A stretch of 23,379 nucleotides of DNA from a virus, in IMG/VR virus record IMGVR_UViG_3300048625_000012, positions 1 through 23,379 of that record; one strand, written 5' to 3'. The notes under the pieces are model-generated. The model saw only the letters and a program-made list of their open reading frames with translations, was not told the origin of the DNA and did no database searches. Position numbers and translations under genes: made by a program. This document shows, one piece after another, positions 17,548 to 22,068 of this stretch (the stretch's first letter is position 1; every line of letters starts with the position of its first letter).

Positions 17548-17622
17548 GCACCAATAGCTTAATGGTAAAGCAGCCGACTCATAATCGGTTGAGTCTTGGT
17601 TCAATTCCAAGTTGGTGCACCA
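17548..17622 (+). tRNA. tRNA-Met or tRNA-Ile2 (CAT)
   Basis: Complete cloverleaf with encoded CCA: acceptor GCACCAA/TTGGTGC, anticodon arm GCCGA-CTCATAA-TCGGT, T-loop TTCAATT. The anticodon stem resembles that of lysidine-modified tRNA-Ile(CAT), so isoleucine is possible. Confidence 0.92.
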
Positions 17623-17834: not shown

Positions 17835-17851
17835 AATGGTAAAAGTTGTAG

Positions 17852-17880
17852 TTGACACAGAAAGACAAGTGTCATACAAT
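17852..17880 (+). promoter_or_regulatory. Sigma70 promoter P3
   Basis: TTGACA (17852-17857), 17 nt, TACAAT (17875-17880). No tRNA follows; only A-rich sequence up to the next promoter P4. Confidence 0.75.
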
Positions 17881-17955
17881 TGAGGCTTGTAACAAACAAA
17901 GAAACGAAAGTTTAAACAAAAAGATAAATAAATTTACCAGATGTTGTTAAAGAGG

Positions 17956-17984
17956 TTGACAACAAAGGTAAATAAACATACAAT
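17956..17984 (+). promoter_or_regulatory. Sigma70 promoter P4
   Basis: TTGACA (17956-17961), 17 nt, TACAAT (17979-17984). ATG follows exactly 6 nt later, at the expected transcription start. Confidence 0.78.
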
Positions 17985-17990
17985 ACTAAC

Positions 17991-18140
17991 ATGATGCAAA
18001 ACATTCTTCATTCACTTAAACAACAACAGTCTACCTTAGGCACAGTGGCCTATTGGTCAGGGATGTCGTTTAGTTTGAATACGAATGATCGCGCACCGGA
18101 GATTAGTTTAGGGTTCTTAGAGGGAAGTGGTTACGCTTAA
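17991..18140 (+). CDS. Small protein of 49 aa, possibly leaderless
   Basis: Frame ATGATG...TAA, 49 aa, beginning MMQNILHSLKQQQSTLG and ending FLEGSGYA. No family recognised, no membrane segment. It sits between promoter P4, whose predicted start coincides with the ATG, and a strong terminator at 18167, so it has a full transcription unit of its own. No Shine-Dalgarno could exist in such a transcript. The second Met is an alternative start. Could be an early takeover peptide. Promoter and terminator are seen; the protein itself is unproven. Confidence 0.5.
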   Translation: MMQNILHSLKQQQSTLGTVAYWSGMSFSLNTNDRAPEISLGFLEGSGYA

Positions 18141-18166
18141 CAAGTAGTAGCTAACAAACTTAAAGG

Positions 18167-18197
18167 ACCCTAGGATTAAAAACCCTAGGGTTTTTTG
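18167..18197 (+). terminator. Terminator after the 49-aa frame
   Basis: ACCCTAGG (18167-18174) pairs with CCTAGGGT (18184-18191), loop rich in A, followed by TTTTTT. Confidence 0.9.
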
Positions 18198-18214
18198 TTT
18201 TAAGGAAGAAATTT

Positions 18215-18367
18215 TTGAAGGTAGACTTTAATAAAAGAATTCGTGAAGTAAAGTTTACTGCCGAGCATACGCTAACAACAGAACAACGTAATACGTTGAT
18301 TCAAGAAAAGTTAGAACGTGCAAGGAAGGAACTAGAAAGCCGTAAAAAGTTTTCACTTCACGCATAG
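18215..18367 (+). CDS. Small coiled-coil-like protein of 50 aa
   Basis: TTG start with AAGGAAG about 5 nt upstream, 50 aa. Sequence is lysine- and glutamate-rich with a likely helix 'EQRNTLIQEKLERARKELESRKKF'. No relative recognised. It lies right after the terminator at 18167 and before the first long structured RNA, so it would need read-through or an unseen promoter. The good ribosome site and coding-like composition favour a real gene. Confidence 0.5.
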   Translation: MKVDFNKRIREVKFTAEHTLTTEQRNTLIQEKLERARKELESRKKFSLHA

Positions 18368-18479
18368 ACAGTGTTAGATAAGTGCTATATGCCCAGGTAA
18401 CGAGGACCTGAAAGAACACTATAATAATCTTTAAACGGGCGGACAGTTGGATGAAATGCTGGCGGTAACAGCAGAGTAC

Positions 18480-18689
18480 AAATAACTGGTTAGGGTATCG
18501 ACCCTAACATATCCTGTAGCAATACAGGGTATTCACAAACAAACTAGAAGACTAGAATATATTTGAAACATATTTTTTGGCAGCGACCCACTAGTTTGTT
18601 TATGAATACCTTAAGGATGACGATGATAGATAGATTCTGATTCTATACTATGTCCGAGCCCAGCGCCGGAAACCTTAAGGAATATATTT
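18480..18689 (+). ncRNA. Structured RNA element 1
   Basis: No tRNA or gene in 18368-18689, but dense folding. Hairpin GTTAGGGT-ATCG-ACCCTAAC (18489-18508), then ATAT, hairpin CCTGTA-GCAA-TACAGG (18513-18528), then a 20-bp stem (18528-18547 with 18591-18610, one wobble) around a 43-nt loop. Two palindromes CCTTAAGG (18609-18616 and 18673-18680) can pair with each other around an anticodon-arm-like hairpin ATAGA-TTCTGAT-TCTAT. Architecture is shared with 20795-20927. 18368-18479 shows no clear gene. Confidence 0.5.
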
Positions 18690-18766: not shown

Positions 18767-18913
18767 TTTTGAGATAGACGTAGGACTTGAGTCCCACATA
18801 GCATAGTGTAGTGTCTACTACATGATAACGCCAGGCTGCTATAGTGGTTGATAAACTCGTCCATACGAGACAATCCAGTGAGTCCTCCCAGGAGGATAGT
18901 TGGGCTCTCAAAA
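18767..18913 (+). ncRNA. Structured inter-tRNA segment
   Basis: TTTTGAGA (18767-18774) pairs perfectly with TCTCAAAA (18906-18913) across 147 nt. Inside are small hairpins GGACT-TG-AGTCC, CTCGT-CCAT-ACGAG and CCTCC-CA-GGAGG. No T-loop and no CCA. May be one folded RNA between two tRNAs. Confidence 0.35.
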
Positions 18914-18922
18914 ACCTTTTAT

Positions 18923-18997
18923 GGGGGCAGCAGAGGGCTGCGGATCTGCCTTGCACGTAGATTGTCTAGAGGGGTTCGATACCCCCGGCCTCCACCA
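18923..18997 (+). tRNA. tRNA-Ala (TGC), reduced D-arm
   Basis: Acceptor GGGGGCA/GGCCTCC keeps the alanine identity pair G3-T70. Anticodon arm TCTGC-CTTGCAC-GTAGA, T-loop TTCGATA, encoded CCA. The D region is only 15 nt (GCAG-AGGG-CTGC), and pair 49-65 is mismatched. Confidence 0.75.
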
Positions 18998-19078: not shown

Positions 19079-19083
19079 ATCAC

Positions 19084-19172
19084 GGGGAGTTATGCAGGCT
19101 GGGCCTGTCACGGTCTTGAAAACCGATGGACTGCGAAAGTGGTTAGAGTTCGATTCTACTATCTCCCCGCCA
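19084..19172 (+). tRNA. tRNA-Ser (TGA)
   Basis: Acceptor GGGGAGT/TCTCCCC with a T-T mismatch at pair 7, anticodon loop CTTGAAA, long variable arm, discriminator G, CCA. The T-stem pairs only if one A is bulged (TAGAG with CT-A-CTA), a possible sign of decay. Confidence 0.82.
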
Positions 19173-19515: not shown

Positions 19516-19594
19516 TCCGAGAAATCCAAGCAAGGTGCAGGGACCTGACTGTTAATCAGTGGTTAGGTGGGTTCGATTCCCACACTCGGAGCCA
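19516..19594 (+). tRNA. tRNA-Asn (GTT)
   Basis: Acceptor TCCGAGA/ACTCGGA (pair 7 is A-A), anticodon loop CTGTTAA on a 4-bp stem, T-arm GTGGG-TTCGATT-CCCAC, discriminator G, CCA. Confidence 0.88.
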
Positions 19595-19599
19595 ATTAT

Positions 19600-19771
19600 G
19601 TCTAGTTGGAAATGAAAGTAACCCAAAGGGAGCGCTCTGAACAGGCGCTGTTTAGTACGCTTACAAAGTAATTGTCCTGACTGTTCAACCCAAGAGGTGT
19701 TAAACCCGTAGATTTAGTTCCTACGCTCTCGCTCAAGGGATGTTGCTGTGTCACAACAGCACTAGACTCCA
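19600..19771 (+). ncRNA. tRNA-ended RNA, 172 nt, no normal T-loop
   Basis: GTCTAGT (19600-19606) pairs with ACTAGAC (19761-19767), followed by T, CCA and the same ATTTTT trailer seen after real tRNAs. Next to the acceptor is a T-arm-like hairpin GCTGT-GTCACA-ACAGC with a non-standard loop. The body holds AGCGC..GCGCT and CGTAG..CTACG hairpins and a possible GAACAG/CTGTTC pseudoknot. Confidence 0.45.
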
Positions 19772-19779
19772 ATTTTTAT

Positions 19780-19858
19780 CACTGTGTTAAGCGGGGCCGC
19801 TATGTGTAGCCTTGCAAATAGTTAGTAATGTGTACTGCAACTTACACCACAGTGTCCA
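19780..19858 (+). ncRNA. tRNA-sized RNA, 79 nt, degenerate
   Basis: CACTGTG (19780-19786) pairs with CACAGTG (19848-19854), then T, CCA and ATTTTT. T-stem GTGTA/TACAC has an 8-nt loop CTGCAACT. No convincing anticodon arm. Either a decayed tRNA or a tRNA-like RNA. Confidence 0.45.
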
Positions 19859-20195: not shown

Positions 20196-20452
20196 TTCGT
20201 TATAGAGTAGAGAGAAGGTAGAGCAGCATTGAGTAGATGAGATAATACATCTAGTAGCACAAAGTAGATAACAATCGCGTAGGCTTTAAAACCAAACACT
20301 GTGAGCCCGGGAAGTGCGGGACAGGTTGAAATGTGTGAAAAGTGAGATAAGGCATTGAGGGGATGTGAGGGTAACTTTTGGAAACTCACGGGGCACCCAG
20401 CATACGCGATTTAAGCCCCGGGTCGCAGGTTCGAGTCCTGCTAACGAAGCCA
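20196..20452 (+). tRNA. Expanded tRNA-like gene, 257 nt
   Basis: TTCGTTA (20196-20202), directly after the trailer of the previous tRNA, pairs perfectly with TAACGAA (20442-20448), followed by G and CCA. A canonical T-arm GCAGG-TTCGAGT-CCTGC abuts the 3' acceptor strand. Between lie about 215 nt instead of about 45, with hairpins TAGATG..CATCTA, CCCG..CGGG, GTGAG..CTCAC and CGGGGC..GCCCCG. No anticodon can be assigned. A purine-rich stretch follows the 5' acceptor strand. Confidence 0.6.
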
Positions 20453-20460
20453 CATACAAT

Positions 20461-20537
20461 GCCTTCGTACGCTAATTGGTAGTGCGGATAGTTTTAGAAA
20501 CTGTTGGTTGGGGGTTCGAATCCGCCCGAAGGTACCA
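20461..20537 (+). tRNA. tRNA-Leu-anticodon (TAG), class I short variable loop
   Basis: 77 nt, acceptor GCCTTCG/CGAAGGT with G1-T72, the same D-arm sequence as the CAA copy, anticodon arm ATAGT-TTTAGAA-ACTGT, variable loop TGGTT, T-stem with a G-G mismatch at 51-63, CCA. Confidence 0.85.
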
Positions 20538-21010: not shown

Positions 21011-21150
21011 GTGGTAAGTTAGGTTGACAGGTTATTTGACTGTGTGCGTAGCAGGATTGCAAACCCGAGGGGCATATGGCGATGGGAAGTGATATCACCC
21101 GTTTGTAAAAACAGATAACTAGTTGGGTTCAAGTCCCAATTACTACACCA
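21011..21150 (+). tRNA. Expanded tRNA-like gene, 140 nt, Cys-like
   Basis: GTGGTAA (21011-21017) pairs with TTACTAC (21140-21146), then A and CCA. T-arm TTGGG-TTCAAGT-CCCAA is canonical. The body contains a loop TTGCAAA (cysteine GCA anticodon), CTAG as variable loop, and a GTTATTTG/CAGATAAC stem that excludes a normal fold. About 65 nt are extra, including the palindrome GTGATATCAC. It may be a tRNA-Cys with insertion; a cysteine tRNA is otherwise missing from the array. Confidence 0.6.
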
Positions 21151-21225: not shown

Positions 21226-21372
21226 TGCGTCATACTATCAATTGGGAGAGCATTACCCATAACACTAAGTAGGACATCGACAGTAAAGGCCAGTGGCCTA
21301 GGATGTGTAAGCCGCTAACAATGCGGTATGTTCGGGTGATGTGTGCGGGTTCGAATCCCGCTGATGTACATA
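21226..21372 (+). tRNA. Expanded tRNA-like gene, about 147 nt, CCA changed to ATA
   Basis: TGCGTCA (21226-21232) pairs with TGATGTA (21362-21368) through two wobbles. T-arm GCGGG-TTCGAAT-CCCGC is perfect. D-region AATTGGGAGAGC resembles a normal D-arm. The body adds about 70 nt with hairpins AGGCC-AGT-GGCCT and GCCGC-TAACAAT-GCGGT. The 3' end reads CATA before the usual AGTTT trailer, so CCA is not encoded. Confidence 0.5.
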
Positions 21373-21379
21373 AGTTTAT

Positions 21380-21449
21380 GCCCCGGACTGAGTTGCGAGT
21401 CGGATTTGAAGCCGAACGTAGACAGGTTCGATTCCTGTTAGGGGCGCCA
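21380..21449 (+). tRNA. Short tRNA, anticodon uncertain (70 nt)
   Basis: Acceptor GCCCCGG/TAGGGGC (five good pairs), T-arm ACAGG-TTCGATT-CCTGT, discriminator G, CCA. Anticodon hairpin TCGG-ATTTGAAG-CCGA has a 4-bp stem and 8-nt loop, so TTG or TGA cannot be decided. The D-arm is only ACT..AGT. Confidence 0.6.
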
Positions 21450-21458
21450 AGTTTGTGT

Positions 21459-21632
21459 TGTTAAGGCTGATGACGGCAATCTGAAAGCAGTCTGAAATCT
21501 AACCTCAATTCGTGTAGCTTTGCCGAGCGAAAGAGGAGGGAGTCTCTATAGTGTAGTGGACGCACACCGGCATAATCCGTCGGGGGCCTAGGTTCGATTC
21601 CTAGTAGGGTTTATTAGATATCAGCCTTAACA
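21459..21632 (+). ncRNA. 13-bp stem enclosing a tRNA-like domain
   Basis: TGTTAAGGCTGAT (21459-21471) pairs perfectly with ATCAGCCTTAACA (21620-21632). Inside, near the 3' side, is a tRNA-like part: T-arm CTAGG-TTCGATT-CCTAG, imperfect acceptor GTCTCTA/TAGGGTT, hairpin CGG-CATAAT-CCG, and no CCA. CGGCAA and TTGCCG form another helper stem on the 5' side. May be a tRNA captured inside a larger RNA. Confidence 0.45.
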
Positions 21633-21647
21633 GCATAAAGAAATAAT

Positions 21648-21733: not shown

Positions 21734-21736
21734 AAA

Positions 21737-22068
21737 CACTAAGACAATAGTGAGTACTAGAGTAGACGGAAACCGACCCGGGAGAGACTTCCCGGGCTTC
21801 ACGAAAGTGACGAACGATAAGCAAAGTCGGTCCAGTAGGGTAAGGAAAAGTATTGTTAGCGGAAAGACTGCAACAAGGACAGAAGTTAATCACCACATCT
21901 AGTTTGTGGGTTAGTTTAACGCCGTGTATTCCTTGAACTAACAGAATCAAGTGGAAAGCAAGAGCCACAAAGTAAACACCCGCCAGCGAGGGAGCATGGT
22001 GGCAATCGCAGTGAACAACAGCGTGAGCAAAAGGGTGGGGTAAGAGTCCTCAAGAATGATGCTCCTCG
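21737..22068 (+). ncRNA. Large structured RNA between tRNA-Tyr and tRNA-Asp
   Basis: 343 bases without a credible gene but with three folded blocks. Block 1 is a three-way junction closed by ACCGA/TCGGT (21772-21776 with 21827-21831), with arms CCCGGGA..TCCCGGG and TCAC-GAAA-GTGA. Block 2 is nested: TTTGTGG/CCACAAA (21903-21909 with 21965-21971) around GTTAGTT/AACTAAC. Block 3 is a 10-bp stem with one bulge (21987-21997 with 22059-22068) spanning 82 nt, tRNA-sized but without T-loop or CCA. A CACTA..TAGTG hairpin opens the segment. A long minus-strand frame here is probably accidental. Confidence 0.5.

Follow-up and report, generated by a model that had tools for sequence, protein, structure and literature searches.

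In the tRNA gene array of a phage genome, we identified a 257-nt gene whose product was assigned, on the basis of sequence comparison, to a new tRNA-like RNA family. A complete tRNA cloverleaf is well supported in the 12 aligned sequences, with acceptor, D-, anticodon and T-stems all present and co-varying. Our preferred reading, to which we give a probability of about 60%, is that of a mature, non-decoding phage tRNA-like RNA, in which the tRNA body would serve for processing and as a scaffold, and a conserved core within a D-loop insert would act together with the anticodon loop as the working site.

Locus and cloverleaf

The window, by which we mean the whole analysed stretch of 23,379 nt, belongs to a 354-kb phage record, and its array is matched at 100% by the contigs L005 and L008. 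ARAGORN listed 29 tRNAs between positions 17548 and 23332, throughout on the plus strand, with no call inside 20196–20452. Rfam at gathering thresholds returned only tRNAs for the whole window (25 matches), without a match of the tRNA model RF00005 on the 257-nt unit. This model was also absent from the matches listed at E ≤ 10 for the unit and for its copy on contig L010; apart from two same-clan overlaps of lower score, the unit matched tmRNA (T-arm, 9.5 bits) and YrlA (18.4 bits) at this level. The features of the gene are the following.

20196–20452, plus strand: whole tRNA-like RNA gene, 257 nt (BLAST, MAFFT, covariance model; cleanly absent from L002)
20196–20202, plus strand: acceptor stem 5′ strand TTCGTTA, partner at 20442–20448
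20203–20204, plus strand: U8 and A9, in 12 of 12 sequences
20205–20208, plus strand: D-stem 5′ strand GAGT, partner ACTC at 20384–20387
20209–20383, plus strand: D-loop of 175 nt, starting A14-R15-N-G18-G19 and continuing with the insert; arm helices partly supported by covariation
20267–20329, plus strand: conserved core of the D-loop insert, 95.2% identical in L010
20273–20281, plus strand: S1 5′ strand AATCGCGTA, complementary to the anticodon loop
20299–20324, plus strand: core hairpin CTGT-GAG-CCCG-GGAAGTG-CGGG-ACAG, with partial covariation
20384–20387, plus strand: D-stem 3′ strand ACTC (alignment, pair counts)
20390–20394, plus strand: anticodon-stem 5′ strand GGGGC, partner GCCCC at 20415–20419
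20395–20414, plus strand: anticodon loop of 20 nt, ACCCAGCATACGCGATTTAA, with the S1 3′ strand at 20403–20411; loop positions 1–18 without variation in the 12 sequences
20415–20419, plus strand: anticodon-stem 3′ strand GCCCC (pair counts)
20425–20441, plus strand: T-arm with canonical T-loop; T54, T55, C56, G57, A58 and C61 in 12 of 12 sequences
20442–20452, plus strand: acceptor 3′ strand, discriminator G and encoded CCA (sequence, alignment)

The tRNA ends proposed by the first-pass annotation were confirmed: TTCGTTA (20196–20202) and TAACGAA (20442–20448) form the 7-bp acceptor stem, the T-arm at 20425–20441 is canonical, and the GCCA end consists of G73 and CCA (20449–20452). In an array-wide scan for acceptor partners with at least six of seven pairs, 60–420 nt upstream of each T-arm, the sole candidate for this T-arm was located at 20196; it pairs perfectly, is followed by TA and gives the unit the top score, equal to that of many canonical tRNAs of the array. 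A normal tRNA 5′ end close to the CCA, which would have spoken against a gene of this length, was not found in the range of the scan. The middle does hold the extra length that had been described as a long body, but this description was incomplete, as a D-stem and an anticodon stem are also present.

Conservation of the acceptor pairing in relatives, which the annotation had made decisive, was found together with covariation in the 12 sequences: all seven pairs are formed (84 of 84 cells), four of them with changes on both sides, and the stem of L010 reads TTTAATG/CATTAAA. The D-stem is GAGT/ACTC in the window, GTGT with the partner ACAC (GCAC in L010) in nine sequences, GTTT/GAAC in L016 and GTAT/ATAC in L017. 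Both-side changes occur in three of five pairs of the anticodon stem, which appears as CCGGU/GCCGG in L010, CAGGC/GCCTG in L016, GTGGC/GCCAC in L011 and CGGGG/CCCCG in L012, and equally in three of five pairs of the T-stem. A14, G18 (column 17) and A21 are invariant in all 12 sequences; the second G (G19) adjoins G18 in 10 of 12, with an intervening A in the window and T in L016, and the 15–48 pair is G-C in 11 sequences and A-U in L010. Normal tRNAs vary in length around position 20 of the D-loop. The insert of about 170 nt is placed after G18/G19 and, because the A14 and G18-G19 signature is kept, would start near this position. The discriminator, G in 11 sequences and T in L010, argues by its change against a single fixed aminoacylation identity.

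The anticodon loop comprises 20–21 nt across the relatives, i.e. 13–14 nt beyond the usual length, and is not a 7-nt loop with U33. Its bases past GATTT vary (AA, AGA, TGA, TAA, GAA, TAG, TG), and no constant anticodon is found in the loops of the 12 sequences.

A structure of 38 pairs, read off the same 12 sequences before counting, was evaluated in a 12-row MAFFT alignment which itself was not fitted to the structure. The pairs are formed in 99.1% of 456 cells; the alignment, counted as is, contains one-column shifts of the window and L017 (anticodon stem) and of L016 (D-stem), which are the source of the cells scored as other. Changes on both sides were observed for 14 pairs, against a mean of 4.8 in shuffles which ignore the relatedness of the sequences, and none of 500 shuffles reached this number; slid versions of the structure paired in 31–45%. 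RNAalifold unaided recovered the acceptor, D-, anticodon and T-stems. With its D-arm helices added, the structure has 61 pairs formed in 95.8% of 732 cells and double changes in 25 pairs and 59 cells, compared with a shuffle mean of 16.2; the D-arm helices are weaker (81–97% of cells).

A highly folded middle, as the annotation had it, is unsupported for the single sequence because folding was no better than that of shuffles (z = 0.27; 114 of 200 shuffles folded at least as well). In constrained folds, two of five sequences, the window (0 arm pairs) included, have no pair joining the two arms of the D-loop insert, and for single sequences without the S1 helix described below, the cloverleaf is not favoured energetically.

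Conserved core, anticodon loop and predicted pseudoknot

Within the insert, 52 of 63 alignment columns of the core (columns 76–138, corresponding to window positions 20267–20327) are invariant in the 12 sequences, as are all 18 anticodon-loop columns, which amounts to 70 of 81 for both together. The comparison of L010 with the other 11 sequences gave mean identities of 95% in the core and 100% over anticodon-loop positions 1–18. The corresponding values are 35% and 40% for the D-arm flanks, 46% for D3 with the anticodon 5′ strand, 43% for columns 229–241, 39% for the acceptor 3′ strand, 69% for the 5′ end and 74% for the T-arm. As core and loop are kept in L010 while the flanks diverge, selection seems to preserve letters in these two segments and mainly pairing elsewhere. 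In the core hairpin, two of four inner pairs co-vary (U-A/C-G and C-G/G-C), and the four outer pairs are constant.

A 9-bp complementarity, designated S1, connects AATCGCGTA of the core with TACGCGATT of the anticodon loop, and its nine pairs are invariant in 12 of 12 sequences. Shuffled inserts offered at least 9 bp in 25 of 5000 cases. With two G-C pairs beyond a mismatch counted in, the duplex is predicted at −14.4 to −14.5 kcal/mol; the helix would comprise 9 bp, perhaps 11 if continued past a G-A mismatch. On these predictions, a pseudoknot between D-loop and anticodon loop formed by S1 is probable. Covariation cannot test S1, because both strands are invariant, and RNAalifold, which cannot draw pseudoknots, placed bases of both strands in small local hairpins.

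When the acceptor, D- and T-stems and the core hairpin were imposed as constraints and the S1 strands kept unpaired, five sequences folded at −45.7 to −55.8; after addition of the S1 duplex energy, all five fell below the free minimum free energy (MFE), pseudoknot penalty excluded. With all arm helices forced plus S1, again without pseudoknot penalty, the result was below the free MFE in 4 of 12 sequences, equal in the window (−61.0) and above in 7 of 12, with the largest excess in L010 and L016. If real, the pseudoknot would constitute a tRNA-like topology without a counterpart found in Rfam 15 or in the open-access papers searched.

The constancy of the letters in core and loop next to changing flanks resembles an active site assembled from two strands. 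It would suit a ribozyme or a ligand-binding RNA that gains stability from the surrounding tRNA and acts on itself or on other RNAs. We consider this improbable, given that no Rfam ribozyme or riboswitch matched, no catalytic motif was seen by eye, and the gene has tRNA genes on either side and is not directly followed by a protein gene.

Distribution among phages and comparison with known RNA classes

The 257-nt unit recurs in 11 other IMG/VR phage contigs, all with tRNA arrays. The same 12 contigs, the record of the window included, were returned by three pattern scans of IMG/VR, two for the core and one for the 3′ loop; stricter patterns recovered 4, 11 and 8 of the 12, and one further pattern returned the 12 and L039. 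The latter was rejected as a chance match, having neither tRNAs nor a covariance-model match. In 84,980 bacterial and archaeal genomes, two patterns, one of which covers only part of the variants seen later, gave no match and one chance match, respectively; the chance match, L018, is without tRNAs and without the remainder of the unit.

By BLAST, 10 of the 11 other contigs cover the full unit at 85.5–89.8% identity. For L010 the matches were confined to the core (63 nt, 95.2%) and a 43-nt 3′ stretch; its end-to-end alignment was obtained with MAFFT and the covariance model and has 59% identity over the full length. The copy of L011 (positions 573–830) had its end set by hand prior to alignment. 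A covariance model built from the 12 sequences and applied to 13 whole records found one full copy in 12 of them (200–312 bits) and also picked up ordinary tRNAs with up to 42.6 bits (E = 3e-11). The remaining record, L002, stems from a very close phage (terminase 99% identical), in which the same two tRNA-Leu genes stand without unit and spacer between them and no covariance-model copy is present.

A terminase was found in 9 of the 13 records, with identities of 100 (own), 99, 91, 81, 80, 68, 60, 58 and 32%; the value for L010 is 58% and that for L017 is 32%, despite which the RNA of L017 is 86% identical. When isolated phages are ranked by terminase, Pseudomonas jumbo phages including PA5oct come first (53%). 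Since RNA identity is high where terminase identity is low, these comparisons indicate that the RNA is either kept well beyond the phage backbone or mobile.

A tRNA gene which decayed or was randomly interrupted could account for the absence from L002 and for a single-sequence fold no better than shuffles. This explanation is scarcely credible in view of the compensatory changes in the stems and the whole-unit identity maintained in 10 of 11 contigs, one of them with a terminase at only 32%.

Searches beyond these contigs gave matches of the whole unit in 401 isolated-phage records, none covering 80%, and among the matches listed (20 of the 401) all are in the tRNA-like 3′ part (query 203–255). 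As the middle of the unit (20205–20424) matched none of 50,697 isolated-phage records, the remaining matches should also concern the tRNA-like 3′ part. No match was obtained for the L010 unit in isolated phages, for the core in E. coli genomes or for 20270–20420 in plasmids, and derivation from an RNA of a host, a plasmid or an isolated phage was rejected on these grounds.

Several other unusual elements were observed in the array. An RNA of 140 nt at 21011–21150 has an acceptor GTGGTAA/TTACTAC, a canonical T-arm preceded by the conserved stretch GAGGGGCATA, and ACCA; it is listed neither by ARAGORN nor by Rfam at gathering, and homologs with T-stem changes on both sides occur in L002, L006 and L009. 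A conserved region of about 150 nt at 18767–18916 (TTTTGAGATAGACG...CTCAAAAACC) with the terminal complementarity TTTTGAG/CTCAAAA and without CCA is found in L002, L007, L009, L011 and L016, directly 3′ of the 257-nt RNA in L007, L009 and L016. Two units noted by eye show 7-bp end pairing followed by TCCA and no canonical T-loop (19599–19772 with GTCTAGT/ACTAGAC, 19781–19858 with CACTGTG/CACAGTG), and at 21226–21372 a T-arm has its acceptor partner 143 nt upstream and a CATA end in place of CCA; with regard to the latter, weak 17-bit matches of 146–147 nt were given by covariance model R1 in G001 and G002. Four probable tRNA genes are unlisted by ARAGORN, three with T-arm and CCA by scan (18923–18997, 19516–19594, 21380–21449) and a Ser-like one by eye (19080–19172). 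Two stretches without listed tRNAs could contain a small gene as well as structured RNA: 17835–18689, conserved in L002, L003, L007, L009 and L016 and in parts in L006, L011 and L015, and 21735–21979, conserved in L002 and L017. A 20-nt inverted repeat (90%; 21452–21471 and 21620–21639) flanks an odd tRNA-Ile(AAT).

The covariance-model search of the unit, including tRNA, tmRNA and group I models, revealed no Rfam family that fits. With canonical tRNA (RF00005), the RNA shares the four stems, U8, A14, G18, A21, the T-loop, the encoded CCA and the position in the array; it differs by its D-loop of 175 nt and its anticodon loop of 20–21 nt, and it was missed by ARAGORN and by Rfam at gathering.

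In tmRNA, a tRNA-like cap with T-arm and CCA is borne on a longer structured RNA. The 257-nt RNA is likewise a longer RNA with such a cap, and its long middle between tRNA-like ends had led to the proposal of a tmRNA-like molecule. In contrast to tmRNA (RF00023), the insertion is in the D-loop, D-stem and anticodon stem are present, and the pair 3–70 is not G-U (C-G in 11 sequences, U-A in L010). Moreover, indels of 2 nt in the core of L006, L016 and L017 leave no single reading frame shared through it. The tmRNA model aligned to the T-arm only, at 9.5 bits compared with a gathering threshold of 47, and the tmRNA search of ARAGORN reported none. The proposal was therefore abandoned, and a phage tmRNA or a relative of it is extremely improbable.

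YrlA, a Y RNA-like molecule, is a non-decoding RNA containing tRNA-like modules, and in this it resembles the RNA described here. The YrlA consensus (RF02553), however, has the T-arm-like part before the D-arm-like part, and the weak match of 18.4 bits (20395–20516) is far below the gathering threshold of 69 and extends into the next tRNA. A small subset of jumbo phages encodes TROVE proteins, and cellular TROVE works with a tRNA-like partner (PMC7824862), which would allow for an RNA of the Y or YrlA type that acts with a Ro60/TROVE protein. We regard such a role as very unlikely. A TROVE gene was found in none of the 13 records, several of which are fragments, in a search whose control was positive in 1 of 14 genomes.

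ROOL and GOLLD, as described in PMC12286853, are structured phage RNAs of unassigned function often located near tRNA islands. The 257-nt RNA is distinguished from them by its tRNA ends, and no gathering-level match to either was found in the window (25 tRNA matches) or in five relatives (83 matches, tRNA only). In the accessible portions of the open-access literature searched (PMC5852040, PMC9693318, PMC12286853 and PMC7824862 among it), no such RNA is described. One jumbo-phage paper counts 'tRNA-like sequences', a pseudogene among them (PMC5852040), so comparable objects may have been overlooked elsewhere.

The idea of a tRNA bearing a novel type of insertion held in part: the D-loop carries an insertion and the anticodon loop is enlarged by 13–14 nt, but their removal would not yield a constant anticodon. 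Group I introns in tRNA genes add some 200 nt, a comparable lengthening, mostly in the anticodon loop; here the insertion is in the D-loop, and no group I model was listed at E ≤ 10 for the unit or for L010, in line with the original remark that no group I intron core is seen. A precursor of an ordinary tRNA, from which the D-loop insert and 13–14 nt of the anticodon loop are excised in a core-guided manner, by self-splicing or by proteins, would explain why all four stems, the elbow residues and the CCA are intact. Removal of 14 nt from the L009 loop would leave A-UUUUAA, a loop of regular shape, and a catalytic role of the conserved core is conceivable. Such a precursor is nevertheless unlikely, as it requires two separate excisions and would not give a constant anticodon, and as no group I match was listed at E ≤ 10; furthermore, RtcB and T4-type RNA ligase 1 (PF09511) were each found in 1 of 13 records and are absent from that of the window.

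Proposed role in phage tRNA arrays

For the mature, non-decoding RNA which we prefer, the following course can be proposed. The array transcript would be cut by ordinary tRNA maturation, with RNase P acting at the 5′ end and the encoded CCA at the 3′ end; this pathway is suggested by the ends, which resemble those of the neighbouring tRNAs. The RNA would remain intact after processing, and the core of the D-loop insert would pair with the anticodon loop to yield one compact pseudoknotted fold. The tRNA body would then represent a stable scaffold recognised by tRNA-binding proteins, on which core and loop form the working site binding a conserved partner. Decoding is not expected of an RNA whose anticodon loop departs from the 7-nt size and, at its non-invariant positions, differs among the phages.

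No partner or target was found by the TROVE search or by an antisense scan of the phage genome. Antisense action on the own genome was rejected, as the longest Watson-Crick complements (12 nt for the core, 11 nt for the anticodon loop) equal the shuffle medians; a value of 18 nt for the entire element was left out, as its own copy was most likely masked incompletely. A CsrA/Rsm sponge was also rejected; GGA occurs 4–6 times per sequence compared with shuffle means of 3.7–6.7 in the 12 sequences, hence without excess. As to its use we would favour, with low confidence, that the RNA acts as a decoy for, or inhibits, a host factor handling tRNA, e.g. a tRNA-directed defence enzyme. A decoy would fit a tRNA body, and no result singles it out over other uses.

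Some jumbo phages carry dozens of tRNA genes. The RNA described here has given up its anticodon and yet retains 86% identity where the terminase has 32%, which suggests a task other than decoding for some members of such an array. With 70 of 81 invariant columns in core and loop, a direct search for the partner becomes possible. A more far-reaching interpretation, which we put forward tentatively, is that of a new class of RNA machine: by folding back on the molecule's own anticodon loop and occupying it, the expanded D-arm may build, on the tRNA body, a composite and conserved site for binding or catalysis, and the whole may be a tRNA-like cassette moving among jumbo-phage tRNA arrays, alongside one or more further RNAs in which tRNA ends enclose an insert. 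If this is true, such arrays would bring forth functional RNAs derived from tRNAs besides helping translation.
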